This document shows positions 38,160 to 51,878 of a DNA stretch of 64,000 nucleotides, piece by piece. Both the position numbers and the translations under genes were made by a program. This stretch comes from Halofilum ochraceum. Its GTDB lineage: Bacteria > Pseudomonadota > Gammaproteobacteria > XJ16 > Halofilaceae. The DNA is taken from positions 434,001-498,000 of the forward strand of contig NZ_LVEG02000004.1 of assembly GCF_001614315.2 (NCBI RefSeq), given 5' to 3'. A model generated the notes under the pieces. That model had not been told where the DNA came from, did no database searches, and saw nothing but the letters and a program-made list of their open reading frames with translations. Within the stretch, counting starts at the first letter, position 1. The number at the start of each line of letters is the position of its first letter.

Positions 38160-39338
38160 TCAGAGCCGGCCGTTCACGGCATTGACGAAGATGCCCTCCA
38201 GGTCCGCGGCCTTCACGGGTACCGGATTTTTCGCCGCCGGCGGGTCGATCTCGCCGAGCCGGCCGATTTCGTCGGCGCGATTGTCGTCCACCCCCAGGTC
38301 CGCCAGCGTATGCGGCACCCCGAGGCGTTCGCGGAACTGCAGCACCCAGTTGAAGACGGCATCAAACGAGGTATCGAGCAGCCCGAGTGCCTGCGCGACA
38401 GGCCCCATGCGATCGGCGATCGCCGCGTGGTTGAAGCGCATCACGTACGGCAGCATGACCGCATTCGTCAGCCCATGATGGGTGTGGTAGATCGCGCCGA
38501 CCGGGTGCGAGATCGCGTGGACCGCGCCCAGCCCCTTCTGGAATGCCGTCGATCCCATGCTGGCGGCGGCCAGCATGTGCGTGCGCGCCTCGATATCCTT
38601 GCCATCGTCATAGGCGCGGGGCAGGGCGGTGCCGATCAGGCGCAGGCCTTCGAGCGCGATGCCATCCGCCATCGGATGGAAGCCCGGTGCGCACCAGGCC
38701 TCGAAGCAGTGACTCAGGGCATCCATCCCGGTCGCGGCCGTGATCTGCGGCGGCAGGCCGACCGTCGTCTCCGGGTCGAGGATCACCGCCGCGGGCAGCA
38801 TGCGCGGGTGGAAGATGATCATCTTGCGGTGGGTTTCGTCATTGGTGATGACCGACGCGCGGCCGACCTCGGAACCGGTGCCGGCGGTTGTCGGGATCGC
38901 GACACAGGGGGCGATGCCGTCGGCGTTGGCGCGCTTCCAGTTGTCGCCAATGTCCTCGAAGTCCCAGATCGGCCGGTCCTGGCCGACCATCAGTGCGATC
39001 GCCTTGGCCGCATCGAGCGCACTGCCGCCGCCGAAGGCGATCACGCTGTCGTGGTTGCCCGAGCGGAAGACCTCGACGCCGGCATCGACGTTGGCCCCGT
39101 TCGGGTTGCCCCGGATGTCGGCGAACATCGCTGCCGGCAGGCCCGCGTTTTTGAGGGCGTCCATGGTCTCGCCGATCATCGGCAGATCCTTCACGCCGGG
39201 GTCGGTGACGAGCAGCGGCCGCTCGAAGCCGAGTTCACGGCAGATTTCCGGAAGTTCCGACAGCCGACCGGGGCCGACCTTGATGTCGGTCGGGAAGCCC
39301 CAGTTGGCGGTTACTTGTGCGGGATCGAATGAATTCAT
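38160..39338 (-). CDS. Iron-containing alcohol dehydrogenase
   Basis: This is a 392-residue group III dehydrogenase. NAD site FGGGSALDAAKAIAL (about residue 100), PTTAGTGSEVGRASVI, and the metal site ALSHCFEAW plus GLGAVHAISHPVGAIYHTHHG are all present. It is the last gene of a leftward operon with an aldehyde dehydrogenase (10 bp upstream), a glutamine-synthetase-like ligase and a TRAP transporter. In that setting it probably oxidises the hydroxyl of a gamma-glutamylated amino alcohol to an aldehyde (inference). An unmodified short diol or alcohol is the alternative. Confidence 0.88.
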   Translation of the reverse strand: MNSFDPAQVTANWGFPTDIKVGPGRLSELPEICRELGFERPLLVTDPGVKDLPMIGETMDALKNAGLPAAMFADIRGNPNGANVDAGVEVFRSGNHDSVIAFGGGSALDAAKAIALMVGQDRPIWDFEDIGDNWKRANADGIAPCVAIPTTAGTGSEVGRASVITNDETHRKMIIFHPRMLPAAVILDPETTVGLPPQITAATGMDALSHCFEAWCAPGFHPMADGIALEGLRLIGTALPRAYDDGKDIEARTHMLAAASMGSTAFQKGLGAVHAISHPVGAIYHTHHGLTNAVMLPYVMRFNHAAIADRMGPVAQALGLLDTSFDAVFNWVLQFRERLGVPHTLADLGVDDNRADEIGRLGEIDPPAAKNPVPVKAADLEGIFVNAVNGRL

Positions 39339-39348
39339 GACGGGTTCC

Positions 39349-40740
39349 TCAGGTGTTCAGGCGCAGATGAAAGCTCTTGGGCCGCGTCAGCGATTCGTAA
39401 CCGACCACCGACAGCGTGCAGCCGCGTCCCGTGTGTTTGACGCCGGTCCAGGCGAGCGCCGGGTCGAGATAGTCGCAGCGGTTCATGTAGACGGTACCGG
39501 TCTCGATCCGCTGGCCGAGGCGGTCGGCGGCATCGACATCGCTCGTCCAGATGGCCGCGGTGAGGCCATAATCGCTGTCGTTCATCAGGTCGACGGCTTC
39601 ATCGTCGTCGTTGACCTTCATCACGCCGACGACCGGGCCGAAGGTCTCCTCGGTCATTACGCGCATGGAGTGGTCCACATCGACGACCACCTGCGGGGCC
39701 ATGTAGGCGCCGCCGTCCGCGGCGAACTCGGCCGGATCGATCAGCGCGCGCGCGCCGGCCGCGACGGCGTCATTCACCTGTCCGCGGGCGAAATCCGCAG
39801 CCTCCGCCTTGACCAGCGGACCGAGGGTCGTAGCCGGTTCCAATGGGTTACCGAGCTTCAGGCCGCGCACCTCGGTGCACAGGCGTTCGACGAATTCATC
39901 GTAGACCGATGCGTGCACGTACACGCGCTCGATGCCGCAGCAGGATTGCCCCGAGTTGAAAAACCCGCCATCGGCGATGCCGGCCGCCGCGTGCGCGAGA
40001 TCGGCATCCGCGCGGACATAGGCGGGATCTTTGCCCCCGAGTTCCAGCCCGGCACCGGGGAATCCGTCGGCCTCGGCCAGCGTGCGCTGGACGGCATGAC
40101 CTCCGCCGACGGAGCCGGTGAAACACACCATCCGCACGGGCGTTGCCTGCATCACGACCGCCGCGGTCGCATGATCCATGTGCAACGCCTGGAATAGCCC
40201 GTCGGGCAGGCCGGCGTCGGCGAGTACGCGCGCCATGCGCTCGGCGGCCAGCACCGTCTGCGCCGCGTGCTTCAGGACCACGGCATTGCCCGCCGCCAGC
40301 GCCGGCCAGATGGAATTCACCGCGGTCATGTAGGGGTAATTCCAGGGCGCGATCGTCATGACGACGCCGACGGGCTCGCGCCGGACATAACGCCGGAACC
40401 CGTCCTTCTCGGCCGGCACGATATCCTTCAGCGCCTCGGGCGCGGCCTCGATCATGTAGCGCGCGCGTTCCTCGAAACCGCCGACCTCGCCGGCACCCGC
40501 GGACACCGGCCGTCCCATCGTCCAGGCCAGCTCCTCGGCGATCGATTCCTTCTCGGCGACCATCCGGTCGACCGCATCGGAAAGGATCCGCTGCCGCTCG
40601 GCCATTGGCGTCTCACGCCACGCCCGCTGCGCCTTCTCCGCCCGCTCGACCGTGGCCCGCGCCTCGTCCGCGGAAGCCAACGGCCGCTCGGCGTACACCG
40701 AGCCGTCTACCGGCGTAACAATCTGCAATTGATTCGACAT
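39349..40740 (-). CDS. Aldehyde dehydrogenase family protein
   Basis: This 463-residue NAD(P)-dependent enzyme starts at 40740, with GGAGA just upstream; the frame stays open through the neighbouring repeat but that part is not coding-like. Motifs: APWNYPYMTAVNSIWPALAAGNAVVLKHA, FTGSVGGGHAVQ, ELGGKDP (catalytic Glu) and NSGQSCCGIERV (catalytic Cys). It is placed between the ligase and alcohol dehydrogenase genes, so it should take the aldehyde made by the latter to an acid. It is shorter than the usual 480-500 residues but has all catalytic elements. Confidence 0.88.
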   Translation of the reverse strand: MSNQLQIVTPVDGSVYAERPLASADEARATVERAEKAQRAWRETPMAERQRILSDAVDRMVAEKESIAEELAWTMGRPVSAGAGEVGGFEERARYMIEAAPEALKDIVPAEKDGFRRYVRREPVGVVMTIAPWNYPYMTAVNSIWPALAAGNAVVLKHAAQTVLAAERMARVLADAGLPDGLFQALHMDHATAAVVMQATPVRMVCFTGSVGGGHAVQRTLAEADGFPGAGLELGGKDPAYVRADADLAHAAAGIADGGFFNSGQSCCGIERVYVHASVYDEFVERLCTEVRGLKLGNPLEPATTLGPLVKAEAADFARGQVNDAVAAGARALIDPAEFAADGGAYMAPQVVVDVDHSMRVMTEETFGPVVGVMKVNDDDEAVDLMNDSDYGLTAAIWTSDVDAADRLGQRIETGTVYMNRCDYLDPALAWTGVKHTGRGCTLSVVGYESLTRPKSFHLRLNT

Positions 40741-40767
40741 GTCTCTCCGATCCACTCGTTTGAAGAT

Positions 40768-41093
40768 AACCACGAATGAACACGAATGGACACGAATGCT
40801 GCCGCAGGGCCCCGTGAGGTTACGGGAGCTTCGCTGAGGGCCTGGTGGTCCTGAAGTCGGGATGGGAACCACAGATGAACACAGATGGACACAGATAAAA
40901 GTCAAAGGCACTTGATCCCGTGCCGGGAGTGCACGATCTCATTGCATCGCGGGCTTTGACCTTATCTGTGTTCATCTGTGTCTATCTGTGGTTCAAACGG
41001 ACCCTCCGTTCGCGCAGGCACTTCAGCGAAGCTCCCGGGAGCCATAAAAGCCCTGCGGCAGCCATTCGTGTTCATTCGTGTTCATTCGTGGTT
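40768..41093. repeat. Long nested inverted repeat with 10-nt iterated arms
   Basis: Three pairs of arms nest. Outer: ACCACGAATGAACACGAATG-type units (40768-40810) against CATTCGTGTTCATTCGTGGTT (41051-41093), including GCTGCCGCAGGG/CCCTGCGGC. Middle: CGGGAGCTTCGCTGA against TTCAGCGAAGCTCCCG (41022-41037). Inner: ACCACAGATGAACACAGATG-type units (40866-40898) against 40962-40994. A short core stem (GTCAAAG/CTTTGAC) closes it. The element fills the gap between the ligase and aldehyde dehydrogenase genes of one operon, so it would be transcribed as a large RNA hairpin. Nothing else is seen in the 404-bp gap. Confidence 0.85.
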
Positions 41094-41144
41094 CCAATAA
41101 AAGAATCTGCACCGCGTCGATCCTGACGCGGCGGTGCATCATGG

Positions 41145-42509
41145 TCACATCCGCTCGAAACAGCGGACGCGTTCCCAGTCCGTGATGGCGCTGTCGAACG
41201 CCTGCAGTTCGATGTTCGCCATGTTCAGGTAGTGCTCTACGACGTCGGCGCCGAAGGCCTCCTGAGCGATCCGGCTGCCGGCGAACAGGTCGCGCGCGTC
41301 GCGCAGGGTGTCCGGCACCCGCGGTTTGTCGGCCTCGTAGGCGTTGCCGTCGAAGGCCGGTTCCAGCTCCAGTTCGTTGTCCAGGCCGTGGATGCCGCCG
41401 GCGATCATCGCGGCCAGCGCCAGGTATGGATTGACGTCGCCGCCGGGCACGCGATTCTCGATCCGCAATGACGGCCCATGCCCGACCAGGCGCAGCGCGC
41501 AGGTGCGGTTGTCCCGGCCCCAGCTGACGGCCGTCGGTGCGAAGCTTCCCGGGACATAGCGCTTGTAGGAGTTGATGTTCGGCGCCAGGAACAGGGTCAT
41601 CTCCCGCAGGCTCTCGAGCATGCCCGCGACGAAGTGCTCGCCCTGCCGGGACAGCGCCTGACCATCGGCCATGATCGGCTTGCCGTCTTTGGAGCGGACG
41701 CTGAGATGGATATGGCAGGAATTGCCCTCGCGCTCATTGTATTTCGCCATGAACGTCAGGGAATAGCCTTCCTGCGCGGCGATTTCCTTGGCGCCGTTCT
41801 TGTACAGGGCATGCCCGTCCGCCGTGGCCAAAGCCTCGTCGTACTGGATGTTGATCTCGTGCTGGCCGAAGTTGCACTCGCCCTTGGCGTCCTGCACCTC
41901 GAGTCCGGCGGTCCGCATCTCGTTGCGGATCCGCCGCAGGAGGGGTTCGAGCCGGGGCGTGTCCAGCAGCGCGTAATCGACGTTGTAGCGGGTCGCGGGC
42001 GTAAGGTCGTTGTATCCCTTGTCCCACGCGCTCTCGTAGCTGTCGCGGAAGACGATGAACTCCAGCTCGGTCCCGGCGTGCGCGACGAGGCCGCGTTCGG
42101 CTAGTCGGTCGATCTGCTGCCGCAGGATCTGGCGCGGGGAGACCGTAACCGGGCTGTCGTCGGCCCAGGCGAGATCGCTCATCACGAATACCGATCCCTC
42201 GTGCCAGGGCATCCAGCGCAGTGTCGACAGATCGGGCACGAACGAGAAATCGCCGTACCCCGTTGACCACGAGGCGTGACGGTAGCCCGGAACCGGGGTC
42301 ATCTCGACGTCCACGGCCAACTGGTAGTTGCAGCCCTCGGCATGGACGTCGGCGATGTCGTTAAGGAAATGCTCCGCCGTCAGGCGTTTGCCCTGCAGAC
42401 GGCCCTGCATGTCCACCATCGCCATGGTCACCGTGTCCACTTCCCCGGCCTCGACGGCGCTCTTCAATTGCGCCAGCGAGAGGTATCCCCGTCGTGTCTC
42501 GTTGCTCAT
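41145..42509 (-). CDS. Glutamine-synthetase-family ligase (gamma-glutamyl-amine synthetase candidate)
   Basis: This 454-residue protein has the GS catalytic core: HAGTELEFIVF, KGECNFGQHEINI, GNSCHIHLS (the substrate-binding histidine region), INSYKRYVPGSFAPTAVSWG and SLRIENRVPGGDVNPYLALAA. It lacks the adenylylation-type tail of GlnA and resembles PuuA, IpuC and GlnA3/4 types, which join glutamate to amines rather than to ammonia. With the dehydrogenases downstream, the transporter upstream and a divergent glutaminase-like gene, a gamma-glutamyl amino-alcohol synthetase is the best reading. The amine is not shown by the sequence. Confidence 0.82.
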   Translation of the reverse strand: MSNETRRGYLSLAQLKSAVEAGEVDTVTMAMVDMQGRLQGKRLTAEHFLNDIADVHAEGCNYQLAVDVEMTPVPGYRHASWSTGYGDFSFVPDLSTLRWMPWHEGSVFVMSDLAWADDSPVTVSPRQILRQQIDRLAERGLVAHAGTELEFIVFRDSYESAWDKGYNDLTPATRYNVDYALLDTPRLEPLLRRIRNEMRTAGLEVQDAKGECNFGQHEINIQYDEALATADGHALYKNGAKEIAAQEGYSLTFMAKYNEREGNSCHIHLSVRSKDGKPIMADGQALSRQGEHFVAGMLESLREMTLFLAPNINSYKRYVPGSFAPTAVSWGRDNRTCALRLVGHGPSLRIENRVPGGDVNPYLALAAMIAGGIHGLDNELELEPAFDGNAYEADKPRVPDTLRDARDLFAGSRIAQEAFGADVVEHYLNMANIELQAFDSAITDWERVRCFERM

Positions 42510-42575
42510 GTTCTGGTCCTCCCGGCGTTTTTGTTCAGTTCTGTCCTGTCGATTAATCGGTCCCGGGGCCGCCGA

Positions 42576-43895
42576 TCAGCCGTAGTGCTGATTCGGCAGC
42601 CACAGCGCGATCTGCGGGAAGATCATGATCAGTACCAGTCCGAGCAGCATGACCAGCACGAAAGGCACGATCGAGCGGTAGATATCCCCGAGCGTGATCT
42701 CCGGTGGCGCCATCGCCCGCATCAGGAACAGGTTGTACCCGAACGGTGGCGTCATGTACGCGATCTGGACGGTGATGGTGTAGAGCACGCCGAACCAGAC
42801 CGGATCGAACCCGAGCTTGGCCACCAGCGGGATATACAGCGGCGCCACGAGGATCAGCATCGCCGTATCATCGAGGAACATCCCCATGATCAGGAATGAC
42901 AGCTGCATCATAATCAGGACCGTCCAGGGGCTCAGGTCCCAACGCTCGATGAACAGGCCCTGCAGTGCGTTGCCGGCACCCAGTCCGTCGAACACGGAAC
43001 TGAAGCCCAGCGCCGCCATGATGACCCACATGAACATGCAGCTGACGCGCAGCGTGTTCAGGGCGGTCTTGTGGATGACTTCACGGCTCAACCGGCCCTT
43101 GATGAAGGTGGCCAGCGTGGCCATGCCGGCGCCGACGGCCGAACTCTCCACCAGGCTGGTCACGCCCATCAGGAACAGGCCGGTCATGGCGAAGATGATC
43201 ACCAGCGGCAGCAGGCCGGCCCGCAACAGGCGCAGCTTCGCCGCCATGCTCATCTCCCGGTCCTCGGCCGCCTTGGGCGGTGCGAGTTCCGGTTGCAGCC
43301 GGCAGCGGATGGCGATGTAGAGCGCGAACATCGCCGCCAGCATCAGGCCGGGGAACACGCCCGCCAGCCAGAGCTTGCCGACCGGCACGCGCCCGATCAT
43401 CCCGTACAGCACGAGCACGACACTCGGCGGCACCATGATGCCCAGTGAACTGCCGGCCTGGATCACGCCGGTGACCATGCGCTTGTCGTAACCGCGTTTC
43501 AGCAACTCCGGCATCGCGATGCTGGCACCGATCGCCATGCCGGCCACGCTGAGGCCGTTCATCGCCGAAATCAGGACCATCAGACCGATCGTTCCGAGCG
43601 CCAGGCCTCCGTGCAGCGACCCCATCCAGACGTGGAACATCTCGTAGAGTTCGCCGGCGATGCCCGATTCCGAGAGCATGTAGCCCATGTAGATGAACAT
43701 CGGCAGCGTCAGCATCGGGTACCAGTTCAGCAGCGTGATGCTGGCGTTGAATGGCAACTCGACGCCGCCGGCCCCCCAGAGCCAGAGCGCGAATCCCGCC
43801 GAGATCGCGCCGATCACGACGAAGATCCGCTGGCCCGTGGCCAGCAGTCCCAGCATGGAGGCGAACATCAGTATTGCGATGAGTTCATCACTCAT
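42576..43895 (-). CDS. TRAP transporter large permease (DctM type)
   Basis: This is a 439-residue membrane protein with about 12 hydrophobic segments and family motifs such as PMFIYMGYMLSESGIA, GSLHGGLALGTI, PPSVVLVLYGM and GMFLDDTAMLILVAPLYIPL. It is the ion-coupled translocator of a TRAP system. It overlaps the small permease gene by 8 bp and precedes the ligase gene by 66 bp. Confidence 0.92.
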   Translation of the reverse strand: MSDELIAILMFASMLGLLATGQRIFVVIGAISAGFALWLWGAGGVELPFNASITLLNWYPMLTLPMFIYMGYMLSESGIAGELYEMFHVWMGSLHGGLALGTIGLMVLISAMNGLSVAGMAIGASIAMPELLKRGYDKRMVTGVIQAGSSLGIMVPPSVVLVLYGMIGRVPVGKLWLAGVFPGLMLAAMFALYIAIRCRLQPELAPPKAAEDREMSMAAKLRLLRAGLLPLVIIFAMTGLFLMGVTSLVESSAVGAGMATLATFIKGRLSREVIHKTALNTLRVSCMFMWVIMAALGFSSVFDGLGAGNALQGLFIERWDLSPWTVLIMMQLSFLIMGMFLDDTAMLILVAPLYIPLVAKLGFDPVWFGVLYTITVQIAYMTPPFGYNLFLMRAMAPPEITLGDIYRSIVPFVLVMLLGLVLIMIFPQIALWLPNQHYG

Positions 43896-44418
43896 GAGTG
43901 TTCTCCTCGACGATGGGGCGGTTAAACGCGATGCCGAGATCCTTGAAGAAAGTGGATATCGACTGCAGCAGCATCAGCAGGATGCCGGTGCCCATGATGA
44001 TCTTGATGGGCGCCATCGGCGGGCCCCATGCGCTGCGGCTGACCTGGTCGTATTCGAGCGCGTAGTCGATGCTGGAGACCGCGCCGATCAACAGCACGAC
44101 GAGATAGAAGATGAGCAGGGTGTCGGTCAGCGCATCGGTGACCCCCTGTTTCCGGCGCGACCAGCTGCCGTAGAGGAGGTCCATACGGACATGGCTGTTG
44201 AGCAGGAGAGAATAGGCGCCGCCGACGAGATAGTACCCGGTCATCGTGAACTGAGCCGTCTCGACGGTCCACAAGAGCGACCAGTTGAAGACATTGCGGC
44301 CTATGGCGGCGAGCAGCAGGATGGCCATCAGGACAAAGATCACATACATCATGATCTTGCCGATGACCGTATTGAATGCGTCCACATAATGGACGTACAG
44401 ACGGATTGCCCTGGGCAA
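43888..44418 (-). CDS. TRAP transporter small permease (DctQ type)
   Basis: This is a protein of about 176 residues with four membrane segments. I place the start at TTG 44418, which has GGGGGA close upstream. A frame open to 44517 would add a basic, improbable leader. Motifs around GRNVFNWSLLWTVETAQFTMTGYYLVGGAY fit DctQ. It pairs with the DctM-type subunit. Confidence 0.85.
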   Translation of the reverse strand: MPRAIRLYVHYVDAFNTVIGKIMMYVIFVLMAILLLAAIGRNVFNWSLLWTVETAQFTMTGYYLVGGAYSLLLNSHVRMDLLYGSWSRRKQGVTDALTDTLLIFYLVVLLIGAVSSIDYALEYDQVSRSAWGPPMAPIKIIMGTGILLMLLQSISTFFKDLGIAFNRPIVEENTHE

Positions 44419-44785
44419 GATTCCCCCTTCGCGCCGCGTAGCCCGTGGTTTCAGGGTCGGGAGTGCCCGGCTGCGGCCGGGGTCACTTCCGGTCGTACGG
44501 CCCGGCGCGAAACACACTCGCCGGGCGGGTCTCGATCAGTACCGTGATGCGGCCCCGCTGATTTCCCGGGGCTGCATTCTGCCTCGATCACAAGCACCGC
44601 GGTACTGGCCGTCGGGACCAGAAATACCTGAAAACGGTGCCCGCTGGAAGCGTCTGTCGGATCATCCAGGACCGGTGATGGCCCGGTCGCTGCGGTGCGG
44701 CGTTTGTGCACCGGTGTCGTTACTGCACCGGCCTTCCCCGACGGGCGTCGGGGAAGGCCGGTCACGATTCCCTCGTGGCAGCGGA
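44419..44785. other. Intergenic region between dctP- and dctQ-like genes
   Basis: This 367-bp gap inside the TRAP operon holds the strong hairpin at 44727-44762. No gene was recognised in the remainder. Confidence 0.5.
44727..44762 (-). promoter_or_regulatory. 16-bp perfect hairpin after the TRAP binding-protein gene
   Basis: ACCGGCCTTCCCCGAC (44727-44742) pairs exactly with 44747-44762 around a 4-nt loop, 24 bp past the binding-protein stop. With no T-run it is likely to protect the upstream mRNA or partially terminate. That would give the usual excess of binding protein over permease. Confidence 0.7.
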
Positions 44786-45838
44786 TCAGGCCCCGTAGCG
44801 GTACGGAGGACCCGCCTTGCGCATGGTGTCGAGATAATCCTTGAGGATCTCGACAACGCGAGCGTTCCGTTCGCTCTTCTGCGCGACCTCTTCCCAGAAC
44901 TTCATGGCTTCGTTTTCGACCGTCTGCCATTCGTCTTCCGGGATCGAAGTCAGTTCGAGCTTGTCACCCTTCACACGATGGTGCGCTTCGCCCCACCAGT
45001 ACCAGTGCAGCCGGTAGTAATGGGAACTGTCGATCGAGAGCCGGTAGAGCGTCTTCAGGTGCTCGGGCACCTTGTTCCAGGACTCCGTGTTGACGAAGTA
45101 GGAACCCGCCCATGCACCGGCGACCGGGTTGGTGAGGAAGTAGTTCGTGACGTCCGCCCAGCCGTTGTTGTAGTCCTCGGTAATGCCGGACCATGCGACG
45201 CCGTCGAGTTCGCCCGTCTGCAGCGCGACTTCGACATCCTCGAAGGGCAGGCTCACCGGCACGACGCCGAAGCGCTCCATGAAGCGGCCGACGGTCGGGA
45301 ACATGAACAGGCGCTTGCCCTTGAAGTCCTCCATGCTCCGGATCGGTTCCTTGGTCGCGAAGTTGCACGGATCCCAGGCGCCGGTACTCAGCCAGGTCAC
45401 GTTCTTGACCTCACCGTAGGCCTCTTCCCAGATTTCCTTCAGGCCGTACCAGTGCCACAGGGCCGCCACGTCGAGGCCGTACCGCGTGGCGAATGGGAAG
45501 TAGGCGGCGAAGGCGGATACGTCCACCGGTGCGGCCATCGAGTCGTCGTCGCTCTGGGCGGCGTCGACGGTGCCATCCTGTACGGCCCGGAACAGTTCGC
45601 CGTGCGGGACGAGCTGATCGGCGTTGTACAGTTCGATCTCCATCTCGCCGTTGGCGGCGCGGTTGAAATCCTCGACCTGTGGCTGGATCACGTGTTCGGC
45701 GAGTGCGGCGCCCGCGTACGTCTGGAGGCGCCACGTGATTTTGTCCTTCTTGGCCCCGATCACGTACGGCGCATGAAGTACCGTGCCGGCCGTAACCGAG
45801 CCCACGCCGGCTGTCTTGATGAAATCACGCCTTTTCAT
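44786..45838 (-). CDS. TRAP transporter substrate-binding protein (DctP type), Tat-exported
   Basis: This is a 350-residue periplasmic receptor. The N-terminus MKRRDFIKTAGVGSVTAGTV is a twin-arginine signal. The mature part (ITWRLQTYAGAALAEHVIQPQVEDFNR) and the middle (GKRLFMFPTVGRFMERFGVVPVSLPFEDVEVALQTGELDG) match DctP proteins, with the conserved arginine that usually binds a carboxylate. Tat export suggests folding or cofactor binding in the cytoplasm. It heads the leftward operon and is divergent from the RpiR-type regulator. If the downstream pathway handles an amino alcohol, the ligand may carry an acid group or the arginine may serve another role. Confidence 0.9.
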   Translation of the reverse strand: MKRRDFIKTAGVGSVTAGTVLHAPYVIGAKKDKITWRLQTYAGAALAEHVIQPQVEDFNRAANGEMEIELYNADQLVPHGELFRAVQDGTVDAAQSDDDSMAAPVDVSAFAAYFPFATRYGLDVAALWHWYGLKEIWEEAYGEVKNVTWLSTGAWDPCNFATKEPIRSMEDFKGKRLFMFPTVGRFMERFGVVPVSLPFEDVEVALQTGELDGVAWSGITEDYNNGWADVTNYFLTNPVAGAWAGSYFVNTESWNKVPEHLKTLYRLSIDSSHYYRLHWYWWGEAHHRVKGDKLELTSIPEDEWQTVENEAMKFWEEVAQKSERNARVVEILKDYLDTMRKAGPPYRYGA

Positions 45839-45985
45839 AGCTATTCCCCAGTTTCCGGGTTGTCTGAAGGGGGATGCCCCCCTCTCTTTATAGGCCGCCG
45901 GTCGCTCCGGTGCGGAATCGATCCCGTAGGGGTATCCTTCCCGCCCGGCCCGACGCCCGGGTTCGCCGTCGAGGTCGAACCATTC

Positions 45986-46034
45986 TGTACAAGTCTGTAC
46001 ACGCTATGTGCGTTTGGTAGCATACACGTACACC
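45986..46034. promoter_or_regulatory. Candidate operator region for the RpiR-type regulator
   Basis: Two TGTACA palindromes ten bases apart (45986-45991, 45996-46001) are followed by CGTACAC at 46027-46033, in the divergent gap between the TRAP and regulator genes. Repeated palindromes in the control region suggest a binding array; which protein binds is inference. Confidence 0.35.
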
Positions 46035-46065
46035 GGTGTCCAACAATGGCCGAGGGCTCCCGCGG

Positions 46066-47001
46066 ATGAATGAAACGGAATCGCCGCATGCCGGGGGCCC
46101 GCAGGCCGTGCACGGGGATACCTCGGTGGCCGAAACGATCCATCGGTGTCTCGACCGGCTGACCCCGACCGAGCGGAAACCGGCCCGGTTGCTGCTTGCG
46201 AACTATCCGGTTGTGGGACTGGAGCCGCTGGCGAGCTTCGCGCGGCGCGCCGAGGTCAGCCACCCGAGCATCCTGCGATTCATCGCCAAGCTCGGGTTTT
46301 CGGGCTATGCCGAGTTCCAGGCGGCACTGCGGTCGGAACTCGAGGCGCGACTGAAATCACCGCTGGCGAAGCGGCATGCGGACGGTGCGGAGGCGGGCGG
46401 TGGCGACGACCTGCTGGCCCAGTACGCGGAGGCCGCCGCGGAGAATATCCGCCAGTCCGTGGCGTCGATGCCGCGCTCGGAGTTCGAGGGAACGTTGAAC
46501 CTCCTCGCCGAGAGCAGGAACACGCTGTATCTGCTCGGGGGGCGGTTCACCGACGCGGTCGCTAGCTACATGTACATGCACCTGCGCGTGCTGCGTCCGC
46601 GTGTCTATCACGTCAGCGGCCCGCCGGTCTCCTGGTCGGAGTATGTCCTCGACATGGACCGCCGCTCCGTGCTGATCGTGTTCGACATCCGCCGGTATCA
46701 GGAAGACCTGGTCCGGTTCGCGGACGAAGCCGCGGAGCGGGGCGCGCGGATCGTGCTGGTGACGGACAACTGGCTGTCGCCCATCGCGGCGCACGCCGAA
46801 TATGTCCTCGCAACCCGTATCGAGGTCCCTTCGAACTGGGACTCCGTGGTGGCGATGATGACGCTGATGGAGGCGTTGATCGCGGCCCTTAACAATCGGC
46901 AGTGGCCGCGCCTCGAGGGCCGTATCCGTGAACTCGAGCGCATGCGCGACCATTTTGAATCCGGCGAGCCACTGGAACCAAAACCTGAATCGGACCAATG
47001 A
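46066..47001 (+). CDS. RpiR/MurR-family regulator with SIS domain
   Basis: This 311-residue protein has an N-terminal HTH_6 domain (about residues 20-100; VVGLEPLASFARRAEVSHPSILRFIAKLGFSGYAEFQ) and a C-terminal SIS domain (about 150-280; YLLGGRFTDAVASYMYMHL, ARIVLVTDNWLSPIA). SIS domains bind phosphosugars, though some RpiR relatives control amine and amino-acid pathways. It is divergent from the TRAP/ligase operon and co-translated (ATGA overlap) with the glutaminase-like gene. It is thus the likely regulator of this pathway. A start at GTG 46036 is also open. Confidence 0.86.
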   Translation: MNETESPHAGGPQAVHGDTSVAETIHRCLDRLTPTERKPARLLLANYPVVGLEPLASFARRAEVSHPSILRFIAKLGFSGYAEFQAALRSELEARLKSPLAKRHADGAEAGGGDDLLAQYAEAAAENIRQSVASMPRSEFEGTLNLLAESRNTLYLLGGRFTDAVASYMYMHLRVLRPRVYHVSGPPVSWSEYVLDMDRRSVLIVFDIRRYQEDLVRFADEAAERGARIVLVTDNWLSPIAAHAEYVLATRIEVPSNWDSVVAMMTLMEALIAALNNRQWPRLEGRIRELERMRDHFESGEPLEPKPESDQ

Positions 47002-47726
47002 CCATGCGCCTCGGCATTCTGCAATGCGATTCCGTCCGCCCCGAACTGCAACCGGAGTTCGGTGATTACCCCGATATGTTCCAGCGTCTTTTGACGACCG
47101 AAGCGGTGCAGCCCGAGTTCCGCGTGTACGACCTGACCGCCGGCAAGTTCCCCGAATCGCCGGACGAGTGCGACGCGTGGCTGTTCACGGGCAGCAAATG
47201 GAGTGTCTACGACCCGGATGAATGGATCGCGCGGGCACACGAGTTCGCCCGCGAGCTGCATGCATCACGGCAGCCGACCGTCGGCATCTGTTTCGGCCAT
47301 CAACTCATCTCCCGGGCACTCGGCGGGCGCGTCGAGAAGGCGCCGATCGGGTGGGGCGTCGGGGTGCACACCGCCGGGATATTGCGGCACGAGCCGTGGA
47401 TGCAGCCCGATCGCGACAAGCTGTCGCTGCTCGTGAGCCACCAGGATCAGGTGATCGAGCCGCCTGAAGGGGCGGAACTCCTCGCCGGGCACGAATTCTG
47501 CCCCCACGACATGTTCCGCATTGGCGATCACATCCTGACATTCCAGGGGCACCCGGAGTTCGGGCCGGGATACTCGCAGGCGACTATGGATATGCGCCGG
47601 GACACCCTGGGCGAAGACACCTACCGTGCCGGCGTCGCCTCGCTGGACAATTCGATCGATCCCGACGTCGCCGCCGCGTGGATCCACTCGTTCATCGCCC
47701 GCGCATGCGGGGAAACCGCTGACTGA
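46998..47726 (+). CDS. Class I glutamine amidotransferase-like hydrolase
   Basis: This is a 242-residue stand-alone GATase domain. Nucleophile motif TVGICFGHQLISRALGG (Cys about residue 97), and FQGHPEF for the catalytic His. No synthetase domain is attached. Stand-alone enzymes of this fold, like PuuD, can remove a gamma-glutamyl group. The ATGA overlap with the regulator, opposite a glutamyl-amine ligase, supports a role in releasing glutamate from the oxidised gamma-glutamyl product (inference). Confidence 0.82.
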   Translation: MTMRLGILQCDSVRPELQPEFGDYPDMFQRLLTTEAVQPEFRVYDLTAGKFPESPDECDAWLFTGSKWSVYDPDEWIARAHEFARELHASRQPTVGICFGHQLISRALGGRVEKAPIGWGVGVHTAGILRHEPWMQPDRDKLSLLVSHQDQVIEPPEGAELLAGHEFCPHDMFRIGDHILTFQGHPEFGPGYSQATMDMRRDTLGEDTYRAGVASLDNSIDPDVAAAWIHSFIARACGETAD

Positions 47727-47772
47727 GCGCGGGATCGCCGTGTTGCGGGGGTTCTGACGGTTTCAGGAAAGA

Positions 47773-47943
47773 GGTTCTCGCCAAGGCGCGGAGGGCGCCA
47801 AGGGACGCAAGAACCCCAAAAAATCAGCAAAAAGAGAATTCACCGGGGAGAGCAGCCGAAACGACACCCGGCTCACGCGCTCGTTTCCATATCGCCTGTG
47901 CTTCTCGCTTCTCCTTTGCGTCCTCCGCGCCTTGGCGAGAACC
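47773..47943. repeat. Iteron-armed inverted repeat upstream of the symporter operon
   Basis: GGTTCTCGCCAAGGCGCGGA (arm 47773-47794) is an exact 22-bp inverted match to 47922-47943. The left arm continues with more GC-C-AAG units (GGGCGCCAAGGGACGCAAGAA). An element with the same TCTCGCCAAG core lies on the other side of the symporter gene at 49838-50043. Confidence 0.85.
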
Positions 47944-48155
47944 CTGACCTGCACGGCGCCGAAAATCCCACCTTCGCTGCACGAAGTCCATAGCGGCACG
48001 CGCCTCCTCATCACACTGCGGAATCGAGCCAGGCTGGCGCCGGACATTACACTCCGGTAATATTTCATGCTGTTTAATTCCAGCCGGAATAAATTTTTCA
48101 TTACCATAAACGGCAGAATTATTCAACAAATGACTGGCCAACTGGGAGAAACACA
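47944..48155. other. AT-rich leader of the symporter operon
   Basis: Bases from about 48050 to 48140 are markedly AT-rich for this genome (TAATATTTCATG, AATAAATTTTTCATTACC) and lie directly upstream of the small accessory gene. They probably contain its promoter. I could not fix the boxes with confidence. Confidence 0.4.
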
Positions 48156-50082: not shown

Positions 50083-50463
50083 TTAACAGGTCGAATGAAA
50101 CAACCCCGCCACAGGCTCGCCGGCGGTGGCGAGTTCGTTGTATTTTTCGACCGCTTCGCGGGTCTCCAGGACATGAACGGTGGCGCCGGCCTGCTCCAGG
50201 TGGTCGAGCGTCGACTGCTGCGTGCGCAGGGCGCGCCACATGCCGCGGGTGAGGATGATCGTGGTGGCGCCCGTGGCGAGCAGTTCCTCGACGTCCTCCG
50301 GCTGGATGCCCGGGACATGGCGTGTCCCGGTCTCGCTCCAGTCCCACGCGCGGCCGCCCCCGGGCCAGAGCTTGAAGTCCTTCCCCGTCCCCAGGCCTGT
50401 GACGGTCATCGCGCCCCAGTCGATGTGCTCGATACGCGGTGAAGCCGAAGTGGATGTCGTCAT
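50083..50463 (-). CDS. MTH938-like domain protein
   Basis: This 126-residue protein starts at 50463 behind GGGAGG. The pattern IEHIDWGAMTVTGLGTGKDFKLWPGGGRAWDW, ELLATGATTIILTRGMWRAL and VHVLETREAVEKYNELA matches the small MTH938/NDUFAF3-type fold. The human homologue assists complex I assembly; bacterial roles are not settled. It is divergent from the MttB-family gene with a 104-bp gap. Confidence 0.8.
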   Translation of the reverse strand: MTTSTSASPRIEHIDWGAMTVTGLGTGKDFKLWPGGGRAWDWSETGTRHVPGIQPEDVEELLATGATTIILTRGMWRALRTQQSTLDHLEQAGATVHVLETREAVEKYNELATAGEPVAGLFHSTC

Positions 50464-50567
50464 GGTGGCTATACCTCCCGACATCGAGGATAGCAATTGC
50501 ATCTGGCAATGCGGGTGTTCGGATGGGACGATCACGGCTCCCGTGCCCGCGTGCACGCCATCGCCCC

Positions 50568-51878
50568 ATGCCGATGTGCCCGGATTCCGCCATCGACCGC
50601 GTATCGACCCCGTACGATCTGCTGACGTCGGCGCAGGTGGAACGTCTGCGCGCCGATGCCGATCGGATTCTCGACGAGATCGGGCTCGAGGTTCGTGAGC
50701 ACCCGGACGCGCTCGAGCGCTTCGCCGCCGCGGGTGCCCGGATCGATGGCACGCGCGTGCGGTTCGAGCCGGGCCTGGCACGGGCGCTTGTCCAGCACAG
50801 CGCGCCGCCCCGTTTCACACAGCGCGCGCGTAACCCCGTAAACGATGTCGTCTTCGGCGGCCACGGCACGGTGACCGCGCCCGCCGCCGGACCGCCGATG
50901 GTGCGCGGGCGCGACGGCATCCGGCGCTATGCCCGGCTCGAAGACTTCCGCGACTTTGCGCGGCTGACGCAGGCAAGCGATGCCATCGACCACGCGGGCG
51001 CCATGTACTGCGAGCCCACCGACTGCGATGCCGCCGTGCGCCATCTGCGCTCGCTCGAAGCCGCCTTGCGGCTGACCGATAAGCCGGTCATGGGCTATGG
51101 GCGCGACAGTGACCAGGTAACGGACAGTATCGACGCGATGCGCGCGGTGTTCGGGGAGGCGACGATGGCCAACGAGTGCTGTCTGCTTACGATGGCGAAC
51201 ATCGAAGCGCCGCTCGTGCTGACCGGGACCACGGCCGAGGCGCTCATGCGGACCTCGGCGGCAGGGCAGGCCGTGCTGGTCGCTTCGTATCCGGTCCTCG
51301 GCATGACGGCACCGGTCACGGTGGGTACCGCGCTCGCACAGATGCTCGCGGAAGTGCAGGCGGGCGCCGCGCTGACCCAGCTCGTGCGGCCTGGTGCGCC
51401 GGTCATGGTGGGGATGTCCGGAGCCGTGTTCTCCATGCGCGCGATGCGCCCGGAGTTCGGCGGTGTCGAGGGCCTGTTCCTGATGAGCGCCGGGGCGCAA
51501 CTGGCGCGTGATCTGGGTTGCCCCGTGCGCGGGGATGGGGCGGTTACGTCATCCAAGCTGCCCGACGCGCAGGCGTCGGGCGATGCCACCCGCGGCCTTG
51601 CCTGCGCGCATGCCGCGAATGTGGATTTCGCGTTGCATTCGGCCGGCTGGCTGGAGGCGGGCCTGGTCATGTCGCTCGAGCGGTTCGCACACGATGTCGA
51701 TTCGATCGCGGCGGTACGCGCGCAGGGGCTGAATGCGCCCACGCCGGAGCCGGGGCGCGGCTGGGAAGCCCTGATGGCCGAGTGGCGCGAACCGCCCATG
51801 GACAGCTCGACCGCGCAGACGCTGGCGGATTTCATTGGCGAACGGACGCGCCGCCGTCTCCGGGAGGCGGCGACGTGA
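50568..51878 (+). CDS. MttB-family (non-pyrrolysine) methyltransferase
   Basis: This 436-residue protein of the trimethylamine methyltransferase superfamily has RADADRILDEIGLEVREHPDALERF near the N-terminus, EAPLVLTGTTAEALM, VMVGMSGAVFSMRAMRPEFG and a TIM-barrel-like repeat of Gly/Ala motifs. There is no in-frame amber codon, so it belongs to the pyrrolysine-free group whose studied members demethylate glycine betaine, proline betaine or carnitine with a corrinoid partner. No corrinoid protein is encoded in the window. Its actual substrate and acceptor are unknown. Confidence 0.78.
   Translation: MPMCPDSAIDRVSTPYDLLTSAQVERLRADADRILDEIGLEVREHPDALERFAAAGARIDGTRVRFEPGLARALVQHSAPPRFTQRARNPVNDVVFGGHGTVTAPAAGPPMVRGRDGIRRYARLEDFRDFARLTQASDAIDHAGAMYCEPTDCDAAVRHLRSLEAALRLTDKPVMGYGRDSDQVTDSIDAMRAVFGEATMANECCLLTMANIEAPLVLTGTTAEALMRTSAAGQAVLVASYPVLGMTAPVTVGTALAQMLAEVQAGAALTQLVRPGAPVMVGMSGAVFSMRAMRPEFGGVEGLFLMSAGAQLARDLGCPVRGDGAVTSSKLPDAQASGDATRGLACAHAANVDFALHSAGWLEAGLVMSLERFAHDVDSIAAVRAQGLNAPTPEPGRGWEALMAEWREPPMDSSTAQTLADFIGERTRRRLREAAT

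Follow-up and report, generated by a model that had tools for sequence, protein, structure and literature searches.

An eight-gene locus in a 64,000-nucleotide stretch of Halofilum ochraceum DNA (the window) very probably encodes an ethanolamine-utilisation operon of the EtoX, gamma-glutamylation type, a reading to which we assign a probability of roughly 0.88. The observations behind it are the genes present, the families to which they belong, the active-site residues that persist or have been lost, the genomic linkage and the absence of eutB. Ethanolamine forms the head group of a major lipid of membranes and is released when membrane lipids are broken down.

From these observations we infer every catalytic step, the transport specificity and the regulation. 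A Tat-exported binding protein and a DctQM permease would import ethanolamine, which a glutamine synthetase (GS)-like ligase would join, with ATP, to the gamma-carboxyl of glutamate, giving gamma-glutamyl-ethanolamide. An iron-containing alcohol dehydrogenase (Fe-ADH) would turn the masked alcohol into the aldehyde, which an aldehyde dehydrogenase (ALDH) would convert to gamma-glutamyl-glycine, a free aldehyde never being released. A class-I GATase-like hydrolase would then split gamma-glutamyl-glycine into glycine and glutamate, returning the glutamate, and an RpiR-family protein presumably governs the divergent promoters. Every gene is consistent with the chemistry put forward in the original prediction, namely glutamylation, two oxidations and hydrolysis.

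Layout of the locus

An ORF and Pfam survey of the window found all eight genes of the TRAP-fed locus on the expected strands and in the expected order, with Pfam matches that exceed curated cut-offs, mostly by a wide margin (Table 1). Gene order and Pfam matches agree with the original prediction that a Tat-exported TRAP system, a GS-like ligase, an ALDH and an Fe-ADH lie in one minus-strand run, which is transcribed in the order binding protein, DctQ, DctM, ligase, ALDH, Fe-ADH. The divergent RpiR gene and stand-alone class-I GATase-like hydrolase that it described are likewise present on the plus strand with Pfam support, and the two genes overlap. A palindrome search for an RpiR operator in the divergent intergenic region returned small imperfect repeats only.

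Table 1. Features of the locus, in window coordinates.
Feature	Position	Strand	Basis
Iron-containing alcohol dehydrogenase (Fe-ADH); predicted gamma-glutamylethanolamide dehydrogenase	38160..39338	-	PF00465, 177 bits
Aldehyde dehydrogenase (ALDH); predicted gamma-glutamyl-aminoacetaldehyde dehydrogenase	39349..40740 (most likely start)	-	PF00171, 433 bits; GQSCC and ELGGK motifs
Dispersed inverted repeat, ligase/ALDH gap	40768..41094		149 matches in own genome
GS-like ligase; predicted gamma-glutamylethanolamide synthetase	41145..42509	-	PF00120, 324 bits
DctM large TRAP permease	42576..43895	-	PF06808, 235 bits; TIGR00786 above cut-off
DctQ small TRAP permease	43888..44418	-	PF04290, 71 bits; start inferred from sequence
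TRAP solute-binding protein, EtoX-type, Tat signal (MKRRDFIK motif); predicted ethanolamine binder	44786..45838	-	PF03480; 485 bits to 4uab
Divergent intergenic region	45839..46035		Position; promoters and regulator's site presumed
RpiR-family regulator	46036..47001	+	HTH_6 and SIS domains
Class-I GATase-like hydrolase; predicted gamma-glutamylglycine hydrolase	46998..47726	+	PF00117; triad C98-H185-E187

Two gene starts deserve comment. The longest DctQ ORF reaches 44517, and the probable start is a TTG at 44418 behind AAGGGGGAA. For the ALDH gene the start given in Table 1 is most likely the correct one, because a longer GTG-started ORF (to 40911) enters a dispersed repeat. This genome-wide long inverted repeat, which reads CCACGAATGAACACGAATG...CATTCGTGTTCATTCGTGG, lies in the spacing of about 400 bases that separates the ligase gene from the ALDH gene, and sister contigs likewise break nearby; co-transcription across the repeat-bearing gap is likely. 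A second dispersed repeat, with 113 genome matches that mostly cover a 35-40 base core, lies downstream of the GATase gene (47763-48107). Elsewhere in the window (50439-51878) is an MttB-family methyltransferase (PF06253, 373 bits), which scores under the trimethylamine equivalog cut-off and is possibly a betaine-type demethylase.

Ligand of the transporter and related loci

In a search of solved structures, the binding protein matches 4uab (Csal_0678) over nearly its full length (485 bits, E 1e-144), the next-best solved relative reaching 65 bits (E 4e-17). This match places it in the EtoX group, that of Csal_0678 and MED193_10041. The entries 4uab and 4xf5 are described as Csal_0678, an ethanolamine-bound TRAP protein of Chromohalobacter salexigens, in which Glu220 is described as holding both the amine and the hydroxyl of ethanolamine (PMC12410723). 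The aligned residue of the window protein, E221, is invariant in 86 sequences. Carboxylate-binding TRAP proteins owe their selectivity to an Arg (PMC4646407), and an alignment to 2hzk puts Phe178 of the window protein at that position; the binding protein hence has the ethanolamine-holding Glu and lacks the carboxylate-selecting Arg.

Genomic linkage provides a second line of evidence on the ligand. Sister transporters with binding proteins 71-72% identical to ours adjoin eutB/eutC in sulfate-reducer-type genomes, with eutA also present in one locus (L011), and Pfam confirmed the ethanolamine-linked neighbours for this locus and three others (L026, L022 and L014). Finding a single transporter family next to two distinct ethanolamine pathways gives good evidence of what it binds. 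The wider binding-protein family may have other ligands, because binding proteins about 60-63% identical to ours (L127, L111 and L128) lie beside glycerol/FGGY-kinase and FAD-oxidoreductase genes; eutBC is also near the L128 protein. The Eut (ethanolamine ammonia-lyase) route itself is ruled out in the organism: a search for eutB/EutB found no match in its own genome and was positive in E. coli.

We examined 94 related loci, picked by similarity to the binding protein and the ligase, so that the following counts are not frequencies in nature. The binding protein is present in 85 of them and occurs together with the ligase, ALDH and Fe-ADH in 36 (the core operons). Six other TRAP loci have the binding protein near eutB and eutC, and a choline/ethanolamine-kinase-like gene is close by in twelve loci. 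The window locus combines ligase, ALDH, alcohol dehydrogenase, hydrolase, regulator and transporter, the assembly expected of a gamma-glutamylation operon.

A hydrolase is encoded in 32 of the 36 core loci, either as a homologue of the window GATase (20/36) or as an N-formylglutamate-amidohydrolase-type protein (PF05013; 12/36). No core operon has both, and four have neither family within the DNA examined. From this distribution, the class-I GATase and N-formylglutamate-amidohydrolase types appear to fill the same slot. The closest solved relative of the window hydrolase is a gamma-glutamyl peptidase.

The remaining components are conserved to varying degrees. The Fe-ADH has all of its metal ligands (D206, H210, H278 and H288) in place; identity to the counterparts in the core EtoX operons is 52-59% for this enzyme and 54-62% for the ALDH. 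Where EtoX-linked loci include a DctM gene, its product is 64-75% identical to that of the window in nearly every case. For RpiR, identity to the divergently encoded RpiR in EtoX operons of Rhodobacterales/Hyphomicrobiales is 36-44%.

Plasmid pMET3 of Aminobacter sp. NyZ550 (L126, 8182-18385) carries a TRAP-less version of the pathway, consisting of RpiR, an FGase-type hydrolase, ligase, ALDH and Fe-ADH. The pathway genes are followed there first by a divergent bhcR and then by the beta-hydroxyaspartate cycle genes bhcABCD, an arrangement that fits glycine as the product.

Ligase ancestry and alternative readings

Aligned with GlnA of its own genome and with relatives, the ligase keeps the equivalents of E129/E131, H269, R321, R339, E357 and R359, which are metal, glutamate and ATP residues. 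It has lost both acids of the ammonium site, D50 and E327, and has F323 at the E327 position. GlnA4, a gamma-glutamylethanolamide synthetase, is reported to have Phe at the E327 position (PMC6529630), so that, compared by this published description, it shares the residue with the window ligase. Loss of the ammonium site with retention of catalytic and glutamate residues gives the window ligase a GlnA4-type residue pattern.

In a ligase tree of 52 rows, with GlnA4 outside the tree, the window ligase groups with the same-genus ligase (support 100/100) and then with actinobacterial ligases (87/73), fork support around this group being moderate. It stands apart from the Halomonadaceae group and from the alphaproteobacterial EtoX-linked group, to which the solved 5dm3 and 11zs belong. 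Identity is only 45-50% to ligases of alphaproteobacterial EtoX operons and only 32-35% to those of the fetched Halomonadaceae operons. The actinobacterial relatives adjoin genes for ALDH, a short-chain dehydrogenase (SDR) and a gamma-glutamyl hydrolase, resembling the S. coelicolor glnA4 cluster, and in Arthrobacter StoSoilB13 an ethanolamine permease (above its curated cut-off) is encoded upstream. A phage search with the ligase as query gave distant matches only. On contig 5 of the window's own genome (about 184959-195500), two more GS-like ligases are encoded close to an ALDH; they probably belong to another amine pathway.

The original prediction of an amino alcohol substrate can accordingly be narrowed to ethanolamine, on the strength of the closeness to 4uab with its key Glu, the eut-linked sister transporters, a ligase without ammonium-site acids and the grouping of that ligase with those of actinobacterial clusters, an ethanolamine permease being encoded in one of them. 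The ligase's amine could differ, because of its 45-50% identity to alphaproteobacterial EtoX ligases and its separate branch. A tentative and rather unlikely elaboration is that the operon is a hybrid in which an actinobacterial GlnA4-type ligase took the place of the proteobacterial ligase normally found in EtoX operons. The exchange might have broadened the substrate range or moved it towards a second amino alcohol, and across such operons the hydrolase slot would be filled by either of two unrelated families.

We consider it improbable that the same logic serves mainly another small amino alcohol, such as 2-aminopropanol (alaninol), serinol or 3-aminopropanol, yielding alanine, serine or beta-alanine. 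The distinct ligase branch would suit such a substrate; the unrelated sensor CqsR illustrates that related ethanolamine-type sites can accommodate alaninol and serinol, and isopropylamine has a known glutamylation route that passes through alaninol. The closeness of the binding protein to an ethanolamine-bound structure with an invariant key residue, and the linkage of its sister transporters to ethanolamine ammonia-lyase, argue for ethanolamine instead.

It is still less probable that the GS-like enzyme is a PuuA- or GmaS-like polyamine or methylamine ligase, with dehydrogenases from another pathway. Beyond general family resemblance, the ligase does weakly match the gamma-glutamylputrescine synthetase profile NF045547 (195.5 bits against a cut-off of 650) and the type III glutamate-ammonia ligase profile (228 against 470), but both scores are so far under the cut-offs that we rule out these families; moreover, Fe-ADH and ALDH accompany ligase and transporter in 36 loci, and an amine oxidase is absent from the operon. 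Ordinary ammonia assimilation and glutamine turnover, with a true glutamine synthetase and a glutaminase, has a negligible chance of being correct: Pfam domain names are all that suggest it, and a separate, much better scoring GlnA in the genome (452 bits) together with the lost ammonium-site acids rules out glutamine synthetase proper.

Comparison with known systems

A genome of the same genus (G001) allows a close comparison. Its ligase (92%) and GATase (93%) genes are neighbours with no TRAP or RpiR gene between them (L131, 1740-2120, contig 29), and positions 42530-46912 of the window are without counterpart. The last ~89 bases of rpiR remain, frameshifted, before the GATase gene, ALDH and Fe-ADH are retained on another contig, and a search of this genome for a close DctM found none (best 36%). 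The simplest reading of these sequences is that G001 lost the importer and regulator and retained the enzymes. Retention of the enzymes after loss of the dedicated importer, as this reading has it, parallels what has been proposed for S. coelicolor.

The Puu putrescine pathway shares gamma-glutamyl masking and final hydrolysis with the window locus, whereas the substrate is different and an Fe-ADH replaces the amine oxidase step. The original prediction had anticipated this Puu-like logic with an alcohol dehydrogenase in place of an amine oxidase, which the presence of the Fe-ADH and the lack of an amine oxidase in the operon bear out.

The ethanolamine pathway is already published, for the GlnA4 (SCO1613) ethanolamine cluster of Streptomyces coelicolor (PMC6529630) and for the EtoX operon (EtoXVW) of Phaeobacter sp. 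MED193 (PMC10132767); according to work cited in PMC10132767, C. salexigens and A. tumefaciens C58 have it as well. The GlnA4 cluster has the same ligase-ALDH-alcohol dehydrogenase-hydrolase logic as the window, although in GlnA4-type clusters the alcohol dehydrogenase is a short-chain enzyme, the permease is of another kind and a TRAP system is absent. The MED193 operon (MED193_10021-10056) comprises eight functions, five of its proteins are induced on phosphorylethanolamine, and EtoX has a Kd for ethanolamine of 7.9 uM; about 5-10% of ocean bacteria are reported to carry etoX (PMC10132767). Like the window, it encodes RpiR, a hydrolase, small and large TRAP permeases, a binding protein, a gamma-glutamylase, an ALDH and an alcohol dehydrogenase. 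The binding-protein gene is the first of the window operon but the last of the three transporter genes in MED193, the hydrolase is a class-I GATase in the window but of the N-formylglutamate-amidohydrolase type in MED193-related Rhodobacterales (L109 and L110), and the window ligase comes from another branch than the MED193-type ligase.

The locus is put together from parts of different ancestry, and it confirms a published route in another lineage and overturns nothing. Its contribution is modest. The ligase of this EtoX operon is of actinobacterial type, two hydrolase families appear to substitute for one another across such operons, and a sister species has apparently lost transporter and regulator while the enzymes remain. 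On this evidence, ligase and hydrolase can be exchanged between branches.
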